This document shows positions 4,374-17,711 of a stretch of DNA of 64,000 nucleotides, one piece after another (within the stretch, counting starts at the first letter, position 1; each line of letters begins with the position of its first letter). The notes beneath the pieces are model-generated. The model was given only the letters and a program-made list of their open reading frames with translations, ran no database searches and had not been told where the DNA came from. Source of the DNA: Haloterrigena alkaliphila (GTDB lineage: Archaea; Halobacteriota; Halobacteria; Halobacteriales; Natrialbaceae); contig NZ_CP071462.1 of the NCBI RefSeq assembly GCF_017352155.2, forward strand, positions 434,001 through 498,000, given 5' to 3'. The translations under genes and the position numbers were made by a program.

Positions 4374-6329
4374 ATGTCAGAACCAGATTCCCAGTCACAG
4401 GAACAGATAGCGGTCGTACTGCCCGACGGCTCCGAACTCGAGGTCGACGCGGACGCGACGGTCGAGGACTGCGCCTACGAGATCGGCCCCGGCCTCGGCC
4501 GCGACACGGTCGCCGGCAAACTCGACGGCGACCTCGTCGCCAAGGAGGCGCCCGTCTACGACGGCGTCGACCTCGAGATCGTCACGGACCAGTCCGACGA
4601 GTACCTCGACGTCATGCGCCACTCCGCGTCGCACTGCCTCGCACAGGCGGTCGAACGACTGTACGACGAGGACGAGGTCAAACTCGCGATCGGCCCGCCG
4701 ACGGACGAGGGCTTCTACTACGACTTCGACAATCTCGACATCGACGAGGAGGACCTCGCGGATCTCGAGGAGGAGATCGAAGAGATCGTCGCCGAGGACT
4801 ACGAGATCGAGCGCGAGGACGTCTCGATCGAGGAGGCCGAGAAGCGGCTGGCGGACGAACCCTACAAGCTCGAACTGCTCGAGGAGTTCGCCGACGAGAA
4901 CGACACCGTGAGCTTCTACAAACAGGGTGAGTGGGAGGACCTCTGTGCCGGCCCCCACGTCGACTCGACGGGCGAGATCGGCGTCGTCAAACTCCTCGAG
5001 ATCGCGGGCGCCTACTGGCGCGGCGACGAGGAGAACCCGATGCAGACGCGCATCTACGGCACGGCCTTCGAGAACGAGAGCGACCTCGAGGCGTTCCTCG
5101 AGCGCAAGGAGGCGGCCGAGGAGCGCGACCACCGGAAGATCGGCAACGAGATGAACCTGTTCTCGATTCAGGACGTCACCGGCCCCGGACTGCCGCTGTA
5201 TCACCCGCCGGGCAAGACCGTCCTGAAGGAACTCGAGGACTTCGTCGAGAACCTGAACGAGGACGCGGGCTACGACTACGTCGAGACGCCCCACGTCTTC
5301 AAGACGGACCTCTGGCACCGCTCGGGCCACTACGAGAACTACGCCGACGACATGTTCATCTTCGACGTCGGCGACGACGAGTTCGGCCTGAAGCCGATGA
5401 ACTGCCCCGGCCACGCCGCCATCTTCCAGGATCAGTCCTGGAGCTACCGCGACCTCCCGATCCGCTACGCGGAGAACGGGAAGGTCTACCGGAAGGAACA
5501 GCGCGGCGAACTCTCGGGGCTCTCGCGGGTCTGGGCCTTCACGATCGACGACGGCCACCTGTTCATCCGCCCCGATCAGATCGAGCGCGAGGTCGAAGGG
5601 ATCATGGACATGATCACGGACGTCCTCGACACGTTCGACCTCGAGTACGAGATGGCCCTCGCGACGCGCCCGGAGAAGTCGGTCGGTAGCGACGAGATCT
5701 GGGAAGAGGCGGAGGAGCAACTCGAGAACGTCCTCGAGAAGCGAAACCTCGACTACGACCTCGAGGAGGGCGACGGCGCCTTCTACGGCCCGAAGATCGA
5801 CTTCGCGTTCGAGGACGCCATCGGCCGCTCGTGGGACGGCCCCACGGTCCAGCTCGACTTCAACATGCCCGAGCGCTTCGACCTCTCCTACGTGGGCGAG
5901 GACAACGACGAACACCGCCCCGTCATGATCCACCGCGCGCTGTACGGCAGCTACGAGCGGTTCTTCATGATGCTCATCGAGCACTACGAGGGCCGGTTCC
6001 CGCTGTGGCTCGCGCCCGAGCAGGTCCGCGTGCTCCCCATCTCCGACGACAATCTCGGCTACGCCCACCGCGTCGCCAACGAGTTCGACGCGTTCCGCGT
6101 CGAGGTCGACGGCCGCGACAGCACGCTCGAGCGGAAGATCCGCGCGGCCCACGACGACCGCGTCCCCTACCAGATCATCGTCGGCGACGACGAGGAGGAA
6201 GACGGCAACATCTCGGTCCGCGACCGCTTCGAGGACCAGGAGTACGACGTCGAGATCGACGCGTTCCGAAGCCATCTCGAGCGCGAGGTCGAGGAGCAGC
6301 GAACGCAACCGGACTTCCTTCAGGACTGA
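4374..6329 (+). CDS. thrS: threonyl-tRNA synthetase, bacterial-type
   Basis: The enzyme charges tRNA-Thr with threonine. The 651 residues run: TGS domain (about 10-75), an N2 editing domain with HSASH near 85 and CAGPHV near 188 that supply zinc-site and editing residues, a class II catalytic core (motif 2 area [16 protein letters not shown], zinc Cys in KPMNCPGH, motif 3 [11 protein letters not shown]), and a C-terminal anticodon-binding domain. The N2 domain marks it as bacterial-type rather than the archaeal form with a DTD-like editing domain; in haloarchaea this is attributed to ancient transfer. Many Asp/Glu reflect halophily. It is preceded by an unusual structured leader and stands as a single gene. 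Confidence 0.95.
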
Positions 6330-11653: not shown

Positions 11654-11828
11654 AGCCCGGGATAGCCGTCGGATACGTAAAAACGTCGTGACGTCCGATT
11701 CCGGCCGCGAACGAGCGGTCGGCACGGGGAATTCGTGGGGGCGGCGCACCCAGCGTCGGCGGACACGGCCCCGTGAATCGGTTACCGAGTCTGCTGTAAA
11801 CCATCTCACGCTATATCAAATGGGAGAA

Positions 11829-11858
11829 CACCTATCGGAGAAATGCCGATTCTAACCG
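11829..11858 (+). repeat. left terminal inverted repeat
   Basis: The sequence CACCTATCGGAGA...TTCTAACCG is 30 bp long and preceded by GGAGAA. It pairs with 17542-17571. Similarity may continue weakly inward into CTCGGTT and CACTCAC. Confidence 0.6.
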
Positions 11859-12021
11859 TTAGCTCTCGGTTCGATACCAGCCACTCACCGTGAAAGAAGG
11901 TAGCCGATACTCGCCGGTCGGTCTATATGAGTGTTACGCGATAAGAACGGCGGAAAAGAAGGAAAGTTGCCGAGCGCTGCCGCTCAGGAGTGAGGCGGTT
12001 TTTCAGAAGAAACGTGGGGTG

Positions 12022-14031
12022 CTACGTCACCGGGCGGAGGTAGTTCGCCACGATCACCGCGAAGGTCTTCGCCTTCAGCTCGGGATCGTCCGCATACTCA
12101 ATTCCCTTCCGCTTCTTCACAGTCCGATCGACGAGCATCCAGGTGTTGAACAACAGCGTCGCGTACAACATGTAGAAGAGCCGCGTATCGGCGTCTCCCG
12201 TCTTCGTGTACGCGAGGAACTCCTTCACCTTCTTGAACCCGGACTCGATGAGCCAGCGCCACGAATAGCCCCCGCGCTCGTCCTCGATGTCGTCGGCGTC
12301 GTTGCCGTTGACGAGTTCAAGCGCTCTCTCGGAGTCGAACCCAGCGCGATTCGTACAGAACGCAACGCGGTCGGTCACGGGGTCTTCGACCGTCTCGACG
12401 CCCCGCTTCGGCAGCGCAAATAGCGTGGTGTGGCCGTACGCTTTCTCGTCCTGCGAGTACTGGGCGTACTCCTGAAGGATGGTCACGTCATCGTCGTTGT
12501 CGTCCATCTTAGCGGTGAAGTCACCGCCACCGGGCTTCTCCTTGAGAACAGCTTTCTTCACGTCGTCGTTCTCGCGGATATTCATCACGTAGTCCATGTC
12601 GAAGACGTCCGCTGTCCGGAACTTGCCCGGGTACCGGAACCGATTGTAGACCGGCACCTGCGCGTACGCGGAGTCCATGTAGACTTCGTCCACGACGATG
12701 AGCTCCTGCGCGCGCTCGATGAACTCCGATACGTGTTCTTCGAGTTCGTCCTTCCGTTCGAGCGGCTTCACCGCGAACACCATCGGGCACGTGGGGTGTG
12801 CGATGCAGGCCGCAGCGAACTCCCACGCGTAGCAGAAGTCGTCGCCCGACTTCGTCCCGTGGACGTACCGGACGACGTCCGGGATGGACTCGGCGATCTC
12901 GACTAACTCAGGATCATCGAAGTCGGCGTTCCGAATCTTCTCAGAGTCCCTCCCGACGAGCGGTTGCAAATCCCATTTCTCGATCGCTTTGTACGTCTCG
13001 TTGCGTTTCGCCTTGCTCCACTCGTCGTCTTCGGGGTTACTGATTGACTCGAAGGTGACGCGCTTCCCGAACGCATCGGACTCCCACGTGGTGGTGTCGA
13101 TGGCGATCGGGAGCGCCTGGTCGTAGAGGTCGAGTTTCGAGGCCGCGTTGAACTGGCTCTCGATCGCCTCGTCGAACATCTCCAGCATCTGCGCGGGAGA
13201 GAGACTCTGGATGTGGTCAAAGTACGTCCGCCCGGACGGCGGCGCTTCGTCGCTGCACTTCGACCACTCGAACGTCTCTCCACCGCCGTAGACGCTCGAA
13301 CTGGTAAGCGCGCAGTGTGCGAGTACCTCGAAGAAGAGGTTCTTCCGGTGGCTCTTGTTGTCCCCGCGCTCGAACGAATAGTTCGGGAGGATGTGGCACA
13401 TCATCTCGTTCACAATGCGCCGAATCTCCTCCTTCGAGAGCCCTTCCTCCTCGTCTTCGGAGGGAACGCTCAGTTCTGTGGTCTCGATGAACGTCTCGTT
13501 CTCGCGCGCCCACTCGTGGACGTACTCGACGGTCTCTCCGATGTAGTCGCGTACGTCTTAGTTGAACCGGTCGTTCCAGCACTCGTTAACCGTGGTCTGA
13601 AACGGCGTACGAACCTCCAGCGAGTTCTTCTTGAAGTCGAATCCAAGATCAAGCGCTGTGTTCGGGTTCTCGTCGAGGAAGTCAGCGATGTGCGAGCGGT
13701 GAGCGAACCCGCGGAGTTCGGCGAACAGGAACGTCCGCAGCATCACCTGAAAGTCGTAGACCTGCGGGTGATCGTTCCAATAGGGGTCGTCGAACTCCTG
13801 GTAGAGCCGAGTCTGGGAGATCGCGTCGAGGAGTGACTCGCCGTCCTCCAGGTGCGACGTGATCTGATTGGCGACGCCGAACGGGTCTGACGGGACTCCG
13901 TAGGATTCTGTCGTGTAGACGTGATGAATATCGGGGCCGTCGATCTGCGTCTCCGTGTAGCTGAACTTGCAGCTATCGACGTCGATGTCGTCCAAGAGGG
14001 CAGTCGTCAGCTCTGCGGCAGTCGCGGGCAC
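12022..14031 (-). pseudogene. IS4-family transposase interrupted by an in-frame TAA
   Basis: One reading frame runs from GTG 14031 to the stop at 12022 (about 669 codons). A TAA at 13560-13558 splits it after FN, and the frame continues DVRDYIGETVEYVHEW without a shift. The C-terminal part has DDE elements: IAIDTTTW near 13100, VVDEVYMDSAYA near 12680 and the IS4 YREK signature YSWRWLIESGFKKVK (Y-x2-R-x3-E-x6-K) near 12250. A CAA or GAA to TAA change is the simplest cause. Translation could restart at ATG 13413 to give a 463-residue catalytic fragment. The N-terminal part (157 codons) probably holds the end-binding region. Confidence 0.82.
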
Positions 14032-14167
14032 TCACTAGGACGCCCACACATACAGGTGGCATAAAGATTGCCGATAACTGATAAGTGGTTAGAGCACTGG
14101 CTTATGTCTATTTGTCCAAAAGACTAATAGACACTATGACGTACTGACTATCGGTGTGAAAACCAGA

Positions 14168-14341
14168 ATGGCTAACGGACAACGATCCATCGGGACGCAC
14201 ATGCGACCGAATATTCAGATCAGCCACCAGCTAAATGGACGCGTGAAAGACTATGCCGCAGCGAACGACCTTGATCTCGATGAGGCGTACCGACGTGTGA
14301 TTGAGACCGGATTAGACGAACTGGAGGAAAACGATGGCTGA
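14168..14341 (+). CDS. small ribbon-helix-helix-like protein, first gene of cargo operon
   Basis: The 57-residue product (61 if the GTG at 14156 is used) has the pattern of an RHH/CopG DNA-binding protein: a short beta segment NIQISHQLNGRVKDYAAA, then a helix pair LDLDEAYRRVIETGLDELE. It overlaps the HNH gene by 8 nt, so the two are coupled. Such proteins often act as antitoxin or autorepressor of the operon they head. It is divergent from the transposase gene with 136 bp between starts. Family membership is by pattern only. Confidence 0.6.
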   Translation: MANGQRSIGTHMRPNIQISHQLNGRVKDYAAANDLDLDEAYRRVIETGLDELEENDG

Positions 14342-15098
14342 CTATTCCAAAACGGTATGTAGAGACTGTGGAACAGAGGTCGTGAAAAGCACCTCTGAAC
14401 GAGGGAAACAACGTGGATACAAGTTCTGCCCGGAGTGTAAGAAGACACTTCGATCGAGTGACGACCTGGAAGTTAAGCGATTGAAGTGTACATGTTGTGA
14501 GGAGTCGCTTGACCAATCGGAAGAAGGGAAAAAAGAGCGGAAAGAATTGAGGCGGTCTATCGCCGAAGAAATCAAAGAGAACGGATTCGATCCTGAAGAT
14601 GATGGACTCGATACGAGACATATAGAGGTGGCCCATCGGACTTCACCAGGACTCTGCAAGAACTGTTTAGATTCGGGTTGTGATGAGTCTGAAATATGCT
14701 GGTACCGCCGATCTGTCACCGATCCAAGTGAGTGTGAAGAACACTCGTTCTTTGACCGGAGAGTGGTGGCCGCTGAATCAATGGGAATTGAATGCCGATG
14801 GTGTGGATACGTCACTTCTGGTGGCCCAAAGTCCTCGGACTACGGGCCAGACTGGGGCGAAGCACGATTTGAAGCACTTCAAAGAGATGGCTTCTGCTGC
14901 CAGAAATGCGGCATGACCCAGAAAGAACACCGGGCAGAATATGAGACTGGACTCCACGTTCATCACATTGAACCCTACCGTAAGTTCGATGATGACGAGA
15001 AGGCGCATAAACTGGACAATCTCGTGACCGTCTGTGAATCGTGCCATAAGGATCTGGAGCCCTTATCCAATGCTGAGCAACAGGAGATCATTGCATGA
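14334..15098 (+). CDS. HNH endonuclease with multiple zinc ribbons
   Basis: The 254-residue protein has an N-terminal zinc ribbon (C9xxC12 and C32xxC35), further CxxC pairs (CTCC, CKNC, CRWC), and a C-terminal HNH nuclease: RDGFCCQKCG, then LHVHHIEPY, then LDNLVTVCESCHKDL, so the HNH His/Asn/His and structural Cys are present. It probably cuts DNA, and the many zinc modules suggest specific target recognition. It overlaps both neighbours (8 nt upstream, 4 nt ATGA downstream). Lysine- and AT-rich codon use differs from the chromosome. It could be a defence or homing nuclease; target unknown. Confidence 0.8.
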   Translation: MADYSKTVCRDCGTEVVKSTSERGKQRGYKFCPECKKTLRSSDDLEVKRLKCTCCEESLDQSEEGKKERKELRRSIAEEIKENGFDPEDDGLDTRHIEVAHRTSPGLCKNCLDSGCDESEICWYRRSVTDPSECEEHSFFDRRVVAAESMGIECRWCGYVTSGGPKSSDYGPDWGEARFEALQRDGFCCQKCGMTQKEHRAEYETGLHVHHIEPYRKFDDDEKAHKLDNLVTVCESCHKDLEPLSNAEQQEIIA

Positions 15099-15454
15099 CT
15101 CAGGACGACGCTAAGGAACGGTGTAGGATTGCACGGATGTTAGCTAAAGGGCACATCAACCCCGCGTATGTTGGTGACCTTAACTCGCTGGACGTTGATT
15201 TAGTAGCTGAATCCAATGCACCTACCGACATAGAATACCAATACTTTGCGTTGCTGGGGCCGTTGAACAAAGAACATGAGACGGAGTACATGACTGTCGG
15301 TGACATCCTTCTCGAAAAGAAACCAGGCGGCCAGGTGATCGTAAAGCGGAATAGAAAGCGTATCGGAGAAATCACGGCCCAAGGACTACACGAGGCCGCA
15401 GATCTTGGCGACGATCTCCTCTCAGAATTGTGGGCAGAAGAGCAGGAGAAATAG
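15095..15454 (+). CDS. uncharacterised 119-residue protein of the cargo operon
   Basis: Its ATG overlaps the HNH stop (ATGA). I do not recognise the family. The sequence is hydrophilic with a helical N-terminus (DDAKERCRIARMLAKGHI), a central segment VGDILLEKKPGGQVIVKR that looks like a small beta domain, and a helical acidic C-terminus. There is no signal peptide or membrane segment. Tight coupling to the nuclease suggests an accessory or immunity partner, but nothing in the sequence shows that directly. Confidence 0.6.
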   Translation: MTQDDAKERCRIARMLAKGHINPAYVGDLNSLDVDLVAESNAPTDIEYQYFALLGPLNKEHETEYMTVGDILLEKKPGGQVIVKRNRKRIGEITAQGLHEAADLGDDLLSELWAEEQEK

Positions 15455-15467
15455 GTAGAACAGAAAT

Positions 15468-15710
15468 ATGAGTCCTTACGATTGGTTCACCGAAAGTGGG
15501 AGTGATCGGGAACGGGATCTGTCTGGGCCAGTAACTGGACAGTGTCCATGGCGCGGATGTAATCATAGTTTCATAGAGGTCTCGACAAAACAAGCAGGGG
15601 AACACTTCAACAACCACCTCGGGTTTCAATCCCCACCCGAAATAATTGGTTCGTCTGTTGTTTGGTTAATGAGATACCGGGAAATGGATTCGGAGAATGA
15701 ACAAAGATAA
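15468..15710 (+). CDS. small C2H2-like zinc-finger protein
   Basis: The 80-residue product contains a classic finger pattern CPWRGCNHSF followed by EHFNNH (Cys, Cys, His, His), flanked by polar sequence. It starts 13 nt after the previous stop and its end overlaps the next gene by 14 nt. Small haloarchaeal zinc fingers often bind nucleic acid or protein. Here it is probably part of the same cargo operon; function unknown. Confidence 0.6.
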   Translation: MSPYDWFTESGSDRERDLSGPVTGQCPWRGCNHSFIEVSTKQAGEHFNNHLGFQSPPEIIGSSVVWLMRYREMDSENEQR

Positions 15711-16269
15711 ACGCCTTACAGAGAACGAAGCACGGGAGTTTTTGAAATTACTGGATAGAGTCGAAGATGACTTGGATGACGCGTTCACAGACGCCTCCGA
15801 AGAAGTATTCGGAGATGGTGACCCTGACGATTCTTTTGAGGAAAAGTGGAACGCACCGGTAGGCCAGGTATATACCGAACATACGCGCGGCAGACTCCGA
15901 ACTTTCGTGAAACACGTTTATCTCCAAGAAGAGGAGCCAGTGAACGATTCTGAGGAGATAGAAGACCAAGAGAACGAATATCTCGGAAAGGCGGTGCTTC
16001 AGCCACCCCTCGATGATGAAGAAATAGAGGAAATTGATGACGAGAAGCTTCGGGCATTGGCGTGGGATCTGGATGCGATCGCCACCGCGTATAATTACGC
16101 CACTGATCCAACCATCCCTGATTTAGCCCGCGACGATATTGGGACATGGGTAGACCCTAAAACCGAGATGAGATTGACCCAGGCTCGAAGCTTGCTCAAG
16201 GAAGCGTATGATCGGCTTCACGGTAGTATCGGCGACGAGCTAGAGCAGTACAAGACCGAAGAGCCTTGA
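15697..16269 (+). CDS. uncharacterised acidic 190-residue cargo protein
   Basis: It overlaps the zinc-finger gene by 14 nt and is the last gene of the AT-rich block. The protein is very acidic and mostly helical, with a linker DSEEIEDQENEYLGKAV and a C-terminal helical region (TQARSLLKEAYDRLHGSIG). No membrane segment, signal peptide or catalytic motif is seen. I do not recognise the family. Codon use resembles the HNH gene rather than the chromosome. Confidence 0.6.
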   Translation: MNKDKRLTENEAREFLKLLDRVEDDLDDAFTDASEEVFGDGDPDDSFEEKWNAPVGQVYTEHTRGRLRTFVKHVYLQEEEPVNDSEEIEDQENEYLGKAVLQPPLDDEEIEEIDDEKLRALAWDLDAIATAYNYATDPTIPDLARDDIGTWVDPKTEMRLTQARSLLKEAYDRLHGSIGDELEQYKTEEP

Positions 16270-16337
16270 CGAACTGGGCCAGTTGCGCTGACCACCCCAA
16301 TCTTAATCCTCGTAGAGCGTCAACGCTGTCAACAAGG

Positions 16338-16568
16338 ATGTCACATCAGATCCGTCTCGAAGATGACGTATACGAACGCATCAAGGCGAACAAACGTGAT
16401 AACGAGTCGTTCAGCGACGCCGTGGATCGACTCATCGGTGGGCGGTCACTCCGCGATCTCCGCGACGTCTTCGACGACAACCAGGTGAGCGAGATGCGAG
16501 AAGCAATCGAGGCCGCTGATCAGGCGGATCGTGATGAAGTCCGCGAAGTTGCAGAGCGCTTCGAATGA
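16338..16568 (+). CDS. vapB: VapB-type antitoxin
   Basis: The 76-residue protein begins MSHQIRLEDDVYERIKANK and continues SFSDAVDRLIGG, the pattern of short haloarchaeal antitoxins with an N-terminal DNA-binding fold and an acidic toxin-wrapping tail. It overlaps the PIN toxin gene by 4 nt (ATGA), the usual VapBC order. The ATG at 16338 fits the conserved start; the frame upstream is not conserved-looking. It should neutralise VapC and repress the pair. Confidence 0.8.
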   Translation: MSHQIRLEDDVYERIKANKRDNESFSDAVDRLIGGRSLRDLRDVFDDNQVSEMREAIEAADQADRDEVREVAERFE

Positions 16569-16972
16569 TCGTCGATACAAGCTTCGTTCTGGATGTCATC
16601 GACGACGTCGAACCCGCCGTCGAGAAAGAACAGGAACTCGAAGTAGAGAACGTTCCGCTGGTAATCCCCTCAATGACCGTTCTGGAGCTCTATATCGGCG
16701 TCGGGAAGGTAGCGAACACCGTCGAAGAACGTCAGAAGGTAGAAGCCGTACTCGATTCCTACCCAGTAATAGATATGACTCCGAGTATCTCCCGCCGCGC
16801 TGGGCGGCTGCTCGGTGAGCGAATGGCCGATGCGGATGAAGGAGAGGGGCCTGGTATCGGGAAAGGAGATGCAGCAATCGCAGCAACTGCTCTGGAGCGT
16901 GATGAGCCTGTTCTCGCTGGTGACGGACACTTCGGAAACATCCCCGGTGTCACCCACGAAACGTACCGGTAA
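16565..16972 (+). CDS. vapC: VapC-type PIN-domain ribonuclease toxin
   Basis: The 135-residue PIN protein has the acidic metal-site residues in order: D4 in MIVDTSF, E41 in TVLELY, D101 in GKGDAAIAA and D118 in AGDGHF. PIN toxins cut RNA (tRNA or rRNA in studied cases). It is translationally coupled to VapB. The module may stabilise the surrounding transposon, as toxin-antitoxin pairs often do on mobile DNA; that role is inference. All four acidic positions are intact. Confidence 0.85.
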   Translation: MIVDTSFVLDVIDDVEPAVEKEQELEVENVPLVIPSMTVLELYIGVGKVANTVEERQKVEAVLDSYPVIDMTPSISRRAGRLLGERMADADEGEGPGIGKGDAAIAATALERDEPVLAGDGHFGNIPGVTHETYR

Positions 16973-16978
16973 GGAATT

Positions 16979-17446
16979 GTGACAACGTACGTCCTTCTTC
17001 TTCCATCCAATGGAACGACCTTTCGTAGCCGCGAACAACGCTTCGCGTCTGAACTCTGCGACCAGCTGCTCTACCTCACACCGGACGGCCTCGACGAGGA
17101 GTCGGTCGGAAATCTCGAAGCGATCACGCCGACCGAGTTGGCGAACGCGGTGTACGGTAGCGCCCGCGATATCGACTGGACGGACGACGACGACCTCTAC
17201 GTCCTCGCCTATCCGCGGCTGCTTGATCTCGAAACAACGAACACGTTCCGTCGGTCGCTTCGAGTCGTCTTCGAACGGGTAGACCCGGACGAACACTTTC
17301 CGTACGACCACCTGGACGACGTCGGGAAGCGGGCGGCGTGGCTCACCGACTCGATCGAGGCGGGGGAGATCGTCCCGCCCGGCGGGGTTCGTCGGCAGAG
17401 TGTCGATGGTGTCGAGGAAGGGCAGACCGACCTCTTTTCCTTCTAG
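16979..17446 (+). CDS. uncharacterised 155-residue protein next to vapC
   Basis: It starts with GTG 6 nt after the VapC stop, so it is probably co-transcribed. The N-terminus TTYVLLLPSNGTTFRSREQR looks like an alpha/beta nucleotide-handling fold, followed by acidic segments and the C-terminus EGQTDLFSF, which resembles a short interaction tail. I do not recognise the family. Base composition is closer to the chromosome than to the AT-rich cargo genes, so it may have a different origin. It is the last gene before the right inverted repeat. Confidence 0.6.
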   Translation: MTTYVLLLPSNGTTFRSREQRFASELCDQLLYLTPDGLDEESVGNLEAITPTELANAVYGSARDIDWTDDDDLYVLAYPRLLDLETTNTFRRSLRVVFERVDPDEHFPYDHLDDVGKRAAWLTDSIEAGEIVPPGGVRRQSVDGVEEGQTDLFSF

Positions 17447-17541
17447 GAATCTGGTAGCTCCGGACGTCGTGGTGTCCTCAGTCTGAACGGCTCGCAGTCG
17501 AGTCGCCCCCTCAGTGTGAGTGTAAAACCGTGTAGAACCTG

Positions 17542-17571
17542 CGGTTAGAACCTACAAATCTCCATTAGGTG
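17542..17571 (-). repeat. right terminal inverted repeat
   Basis: The plus strand reads CGGTTAGAACC...TAGGTG and is followed by GGAGAA. Just inside it TAGAACCT occurs twice, 13 bp apart (17533-17540 and 17546-17553), which could be transposase-binding subrepeats. Confidence 0.6.
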
Positions 17572-17711
17572 GGAGAAGGTGTACGAGCGAGGGCGTTCGG
17601 CGGTCGATTCACTCCGGCCGCCGGTTCGACCGAAATTCGGACGGAATTCGGACGGAATCGGCGACGACGGGCCGTCGCAATCACTAACTCGGTCGCCGGT
17701 GACCAGCCGGT

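Follow-up and report, generated by a model that had tools for sequence, protein, structure and literature searches.

The DNA at 11829-17571 in the window (the whole 64,000-nucleotide stretch of Haloterrigena alkaliphila DNA analysed here) is a genuine transposon, though probably a defective one, and belongs to an unnamed family of cargo-carrying elements in haloarchaea; its transposase gene stands at one end and a further conserved gene, u155, at the other. We consider it likely that the family carries a putative sliding-clamp contact on a separate accessory protein, the product of u155. No description of such a transposon family was found in a literature survey, the scope of which did not extend to ISfinder.

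The element is delimited by two inverted arms, at 11829-11858 (plus strand, the transposase end) and 17542-17571 (minus strand, the u155 end), which are identical at 23 of 30 positions without gaps, and each is directly flanked by a copy of the target-site duplication GGAGAA, at 11823-11828 and 17572-17577 (no strand assigned). The original prediction had described these repeats, and they were confirmed: when dinucleotide shuffling was applied 400 times to both flanks, an arm pair matching at 23/30 never arose, and neither did arms matching at 20/30 with a flush 6-bp repeat. The end pattern ACCTRNNSGAGAN11TAACCG has exactly two matches genome-wide, which are the two ends of the element, and the reversed pattern, used as a control, has none in the whole genome; the element is present as a single copy in its own genome. 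The gene order within it and the AT-richness of its accessory genes were as first described, the GC content being approximately 0.49 in the middle of the element against 0.60-0.72 outside. An accessory region that is flanked by repeats arising by chance, or by repeats unrelated to transposition, might account for ends matched at only 77% and for a broken transposase frame, but not readily for the results of the shuffles or for an end pattern found nowhere else in the genome, nor for the ten elements with duplications and the end-to-end identity in foreign flanks described below, and we regard this explanation as exceedingly improbable.

The layout of this transposon recurs in nine or more elements from other haloarchaea, with conserved ends, target duplications, an IS4/ISH3-like transposase of approximately 670 aa and a u155 homologue, which bears out the expectation that the same ends would be found around different cargo in haloarchaeal genomes. 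In the related loci the transposase and u155 lie at opposite ends, both reading outward, and the genes between them differ. Across ten independent elements, that of the window included, the duplication is 6 bp long in eight (GGAGAA in the window, ACTCTC in L093, TCTTTA in L094, TAACAA in L095, GTCTGG in L096, CGCTAT in L098, ACCTCA in L099, and TCGTTC at the one site shared by L145 and L146 on Natribaculum plasmids) and 7 bp long in two (GCGCCGG in L091 and TTGCGCC in L092). The ends in the family are of the form CANCTA-N2-SGAGA, with a TACCT start in L091, the elements are 3.8-8.9 kb in size and the transposases are approximately 670-730 aa long. Loci L092 and L093, the second of which is an intact copy from Haloferax sulfurifontis, belong to different haloarchaeal families and have different duplications; their identity is 94.4% across a stretch of exactly 4,819 bp, beyond which the 2-kb flanks show nothing collinear, and, because this identity stops exactly at the ends, the boundaries of the element are fixed. 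The cargo comprises an ABC transporter and a FilR1-like regulator in L094 (Natrialba chahannaoensis; L095 is from Natrialba hulunbeirensis), a trypsin-like protease in L099, small zinc-ribbon and DUF7344 proteins in L091, and an HNH protein, a winged-helix protein and a membrane protein in L092 and L093. The same ends and transposase thus occur with different genes, at different sites and with duplications, as in a cargo-carrying unit transposon, and the proposal of a single mobile unit stood on its transposase, terminal repeats, duplication and the different cargo of its relatives. Pairing of the left repeat with another end lying just upstream of the transposase, to give an ordinary cargo-less insertion sequence, was rejected because the ends and duplications of the relatives enclose both the cargo and u155. 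Within the L098 element, at 4556-4600 of that locus, there is a further copy of the end on the u155 side, perhaps a nested insertion or an internal duplication; L137 is a possible further relative, with degenerate ends and no exact duplication.

The insertion lies between rio2 and lplA. The empty site that had been anticipated was found in part: in the congener G026, the rio2-lplA gap is approximately 280 bp and uninserted, but G026 does not preserve the precise bases of the target, so that the empty site is seen at the level of the junction rather than base by base. The interval was also considered as an insertion hotspot, an idea that was rejected; congeners hold other genes there and no trace of the 11829-17571 element. 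These other genes, in G023 (L161) and G024 (L162), encode the substrate-binding protein and permease of an ABC transporter, with the ATPase too in G024, and are absent from the interval in the window genome and in G026.

The transposase gene (12022-14031, minus strand) encodes a protein of approximately 669 aa with a DDE catalytic set and the signature Y(2)R(3)E(6)K. Close relatives, sought in 341 class genomes, are 46-66% identical to it, and across the aligned transposases both D313, D454 and E604 and the complete signature, Y597, R600, E604 and K611, are invariant (L091 numbering). The best named HMM is that of ISH3 (NF033541; E 2.5e-14), with a score of 53.1 bits that falls below the cut-off of 225, the match covering the part of the protein downstream of a premature stop. 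The original prediction was right in recognizing a transposase but missed this stop, an in-frame TAA at 13558-13560 (minus strand), through which the aligned intact relatives read; on account of it the copy in the window is probably dead and, given also its presence as a single copy, probably immobile unless helped in trans. Comparison of the transposase with profiles of solved structures gave nothing useful, an AlphaFold model built with six sequences reached a pLDDT of 37.6, and a scan of IMG/VR gave no match. In the plasmid records examined, fragments of related transposases are annotated merely as hypothetical proteins, and for this reason the vehicle has probably escaped notice in the genomes of haloarchaea.

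The genes carried in the window are all on the plus strand. Divergent from the transposase is a small ribbon-helix-helix-like protein (14156-14341), which matches no Pfam family and shares 79% identity over 43 aa with a small ORF of a plasmid from Halomontanus rarus; it is followed by an HNH protein with N-terminal Cys pairs (14334-15098; Pfam HNH, 8.1e-10), a 119-aa orphan, u119 (15095-15454), an 80-aa C2H2-like protein (15468-15710), which has the Cys/His spacing in its sequence and no family match, and a 190-aa protein, u190 (15697-16269). Beyond these lie a VapB antitoxin (16338-16568; Pfam VAPB_antitox, 4e-13) and a VapC PIN toxin (16565-16972; Pfam PIN, 9.6e-12), whose overlapping genes and PIN domain are those of a VapBC toxin-antitoxin pair. 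The first five had been put forward as a nuclease operon, possibly serving defence or competition, and we therefore weighed the reading that the HNH operon and VapBC form a functional island of this kind, with the transposon as its vehicle. HNH proteins do occur in many defence systems, PADLOC gave weak matches to ZorE and PtuB, the genes overlap or nearly touch, and an HNH gene is carried by L092 and L093 as well. However, the block at 14156-16269 did not recur in the genomes searched: neither the other 340 class genomes nor plasmids contain a relative of u119, and u190 is rare, with relatives in four of those genomes and three plasmid records, where its partners differ. The relatives of the HNH protein match chiefly over residues ~140-250, which is the generic domain only, and VapBC, earlier counted as part of the unit, is an independent cassette, its DNA (16293-16971) being up to 91% identical in many genomes of the same family that lack the transposon; judged by this sequence identity, vapBC seems to travel as a unit of its own. 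A defence island is accordingly very unlikely, and we treat the HNH block and VapBC as passengers. The Halomontanus rarus plasmid has a u190 homologue, an HNH gene and the ribbon-helix-helix-like small ORF all within 4 kb, together with a winged-helix protein resembling one in L092, and part of the cargo is drawn from a shared pool of haloarchaeal plasmid genes. In the genome G286 (L174, 7496-8571), a relative of u190 directly follows a winged-helix gene, which suggests a pair of regulator and u190.

The gene after VapBC (16979-17446, plus strand), which the original prediction had listed as another unknown, is u155, which is not cargo and instead is a conserved part of the element, being present at the same end in related elements. 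It has relatives in 24 of the 341 class genomes (E 0.001), the strongest matches being in genomes that also have this transposase, and tblastn gave no match in plasmids. The protein itself has no direct Pfam match and found nothing useful among profiles of solved structures; it is nevertheless homologous to DUF6884 (hhalign 99.0%, E 2.6e-18), and one of its relatives matches PF21818 (DUF6884) at 3.7e-22. A structural model of u155 had a pLDDT of 81.5, Foldseek found no match to it below E 0.01, and the best match in VIA-align, AF0587, had a weak Z of 6.4, in the range of common Rossmann-like arrangements; because the fold matches are weak, the link with DUF6884 is one of sequence only. DUF6884 proteins have a YaaA-like DNA-binding cleft with the putative active-site motifs CxxxK and LSAxxG, and have been linked to the recognition of DNA lesions (PMC11701544). 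Both motifs are absent from u155 and present in DUF6884 relatives such as L140 and L141.

What is conserved in u155 is the middle of the protein (FRRSLRVV, PYDHL) and the extreme C-terminus, Q-x-x-L-x-S-F, and intact u155 proteins of divergent lineages, down to approximately 34% identity, end in Q-x2-L-x-S-[F/L]. In the window this terminus is the PIP-box-like motif QTDLFSF (17423-17443, plus strand), which has the pattern Qxx-hydrophobic-xx-aromatic near the terminus and lacks the second aromatic residue of the full consensus. Among 667 long ORFs of the fetched DNA, a C-terminal Qxx(hydrophobic)xx(aromatic) occurs outside the u155/DUF6884 group in two distinct proteins only. C-terminal motifs of such form are common in archaeal PCNA-binding proteins, and in those of haloarchaea the second aromatic position is weakened (PMC3504372). 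Residues 143-155 are disordered in the model, which fits the expectation for a docking tail; the transposase ends in NYLRPVT, without a clamp-binding motif. From its sequence, then, u155 is best described as a DUF6884/YaaA-like descendant that has lost the putative active-site motifs and kept a PIP-box-like tail. As DUF6884 relatives outside these elements also have such a tail, it may have been inherited from the parent family rather than gained for transposition. Haloarchaeal DUF6884 proteins in L140, L141 and L142 have zinc-ribbon-like N-terminal extensions and PIP-box-like ends, and C5-methylase and MutY-like genes are found close to the one in L140. Locus L136 (8446-10373), from another haloarchaeal family, has a u155 homologue of 160 aa ending in QRDLSSL next to genes for a tyrosine integrase and an IS5-like transposase, without the transposase described here, which weighs against the role proposed for u155 below.

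On these observations the transposase and u155 form a two-gene core, reading outward from the two ends, between which the DNA is exchangeable cargo. In the mechanism that we propose, the long DDE transposase, of the IS4/ISH3 superfamily, would act on the CANCTA-N2-SGAGA ends and yield the 6-7 bp duplication, and u155 would dock through its C-terminal tail on the host sliding clamp, PCNA. The docked protein could then bring the transposase complex to replicating DNA or, alternatively, might recruit PCNA to repair the gaps left at insertion. Alternatively, in a genuine transposon, u155 may be no more than a passenger that has been conserved because, as a protein of DNA repair or damage recognition like its DUF6884 relatives, it aids the survival of host or element, and may have no role in transposition; the association of DUF6884 with DNA lesions (PMC11701544) and the same tail in haloarchaeal relatives outside the elements would fit such a protein, as would the disagreement between the relationships of the transposase and those of u155. 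The window transposase is 66% identical to that of L091 and 52% to that of L092, whereas u155 is 37% identical to that of L091 and 69% to that of L092; since their closest relatives differ, the two are exchangeable and a tight partnership is not required, which suggests that u155 is modular and can serve more than one transposase. Against a passenger, however, stand the constant end and orientation of u155 in related elements while the intervening genes change, and the loss of the enzyme-marking CxxxK and LSAxxG motifs, and we consider a mere passenger unlikely, preferring the clamp-docking accessory protein.

The element resembles the ISH3/IS4 superfamily in its DDE transposase with a C-terminal Y-R-E signature, its terminal inverted repeats and its best HMM, that of ISH3. 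Published ISH3 elements are 1.2-1.5 kb long, with CRGT ends, 4-5 bp duplications and an incomplete YREK (PMC2266710); the elements here are 3.8-8.9 kb long and have cargo, a second conserved gene, CANCTA ends and a complete Y(2)R(3)E(6)K, and none of the ten has CRGT ends with a 4-5 bp duplication. The complete signature agrees with IS4 sensu stricto, but the 6-7 bp duplications do not agree with the ~8-13 bp (7-8 in ISPepr1) given for that group. As the traits published for both groups (PMC2266710) fit incompletely, we file the transposase in neither. The IS231 subgroup of IS4 also has passenger genes inside its ends (PMC2266710), but these lie between the left end and the transposase, and the subgroup has 10-12 bp duplications and CAT ends and is found mostly in Firmicutes; the passages on it describe no u155-like partner (PMC2266710). 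With DUF6884 (PF21818)/YaaA, u155 shares homology, and it differs in being shorter, in lacking CxxxK and LSAxxG and in being tied to a transposon.

Bacterial transposases often bind the replication clamp directly. Those of IS1634 bind the beta clamp, in bacteria affinity for the clamp raises the transposition rate, and peptides of archaeal IS1634 transposases bind PCNA (PMC4549789). The present family and IS1634 are thus alike as mobile elements with a short C-terminal clamp motif, putative in our case (PMC4549789). In IS1634, however, the motif is on the transposase, whereas here it is on the separate protein u155. In Tn7 the contact with the sliding clamp is made by TnsE, an accessory protein in its own right, which directs the transposon to DNA under replication. 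The likeness of u155 to TnsE would be one of function, and no TnsABC-like genes were seen in the 11829-17571 element. We suggest tentatively, as a plausible if somewhat doubtful extension, that in these archaeal elements a second, dedicated protein, recruited from a family that recognizes DNA lesions, couples transposition to PCNA, as an independently evolved counterpart of TnsE that is exchangeable between elements. With a separate clamp-docking candidate opposite the transposase, the family lends itself to direct tests of whether transposition is linked to replication, in haloarchaea that are genetically tractable; the element is ordinary as a cargo transposon, and it is in this separate candidate that it is unusual.
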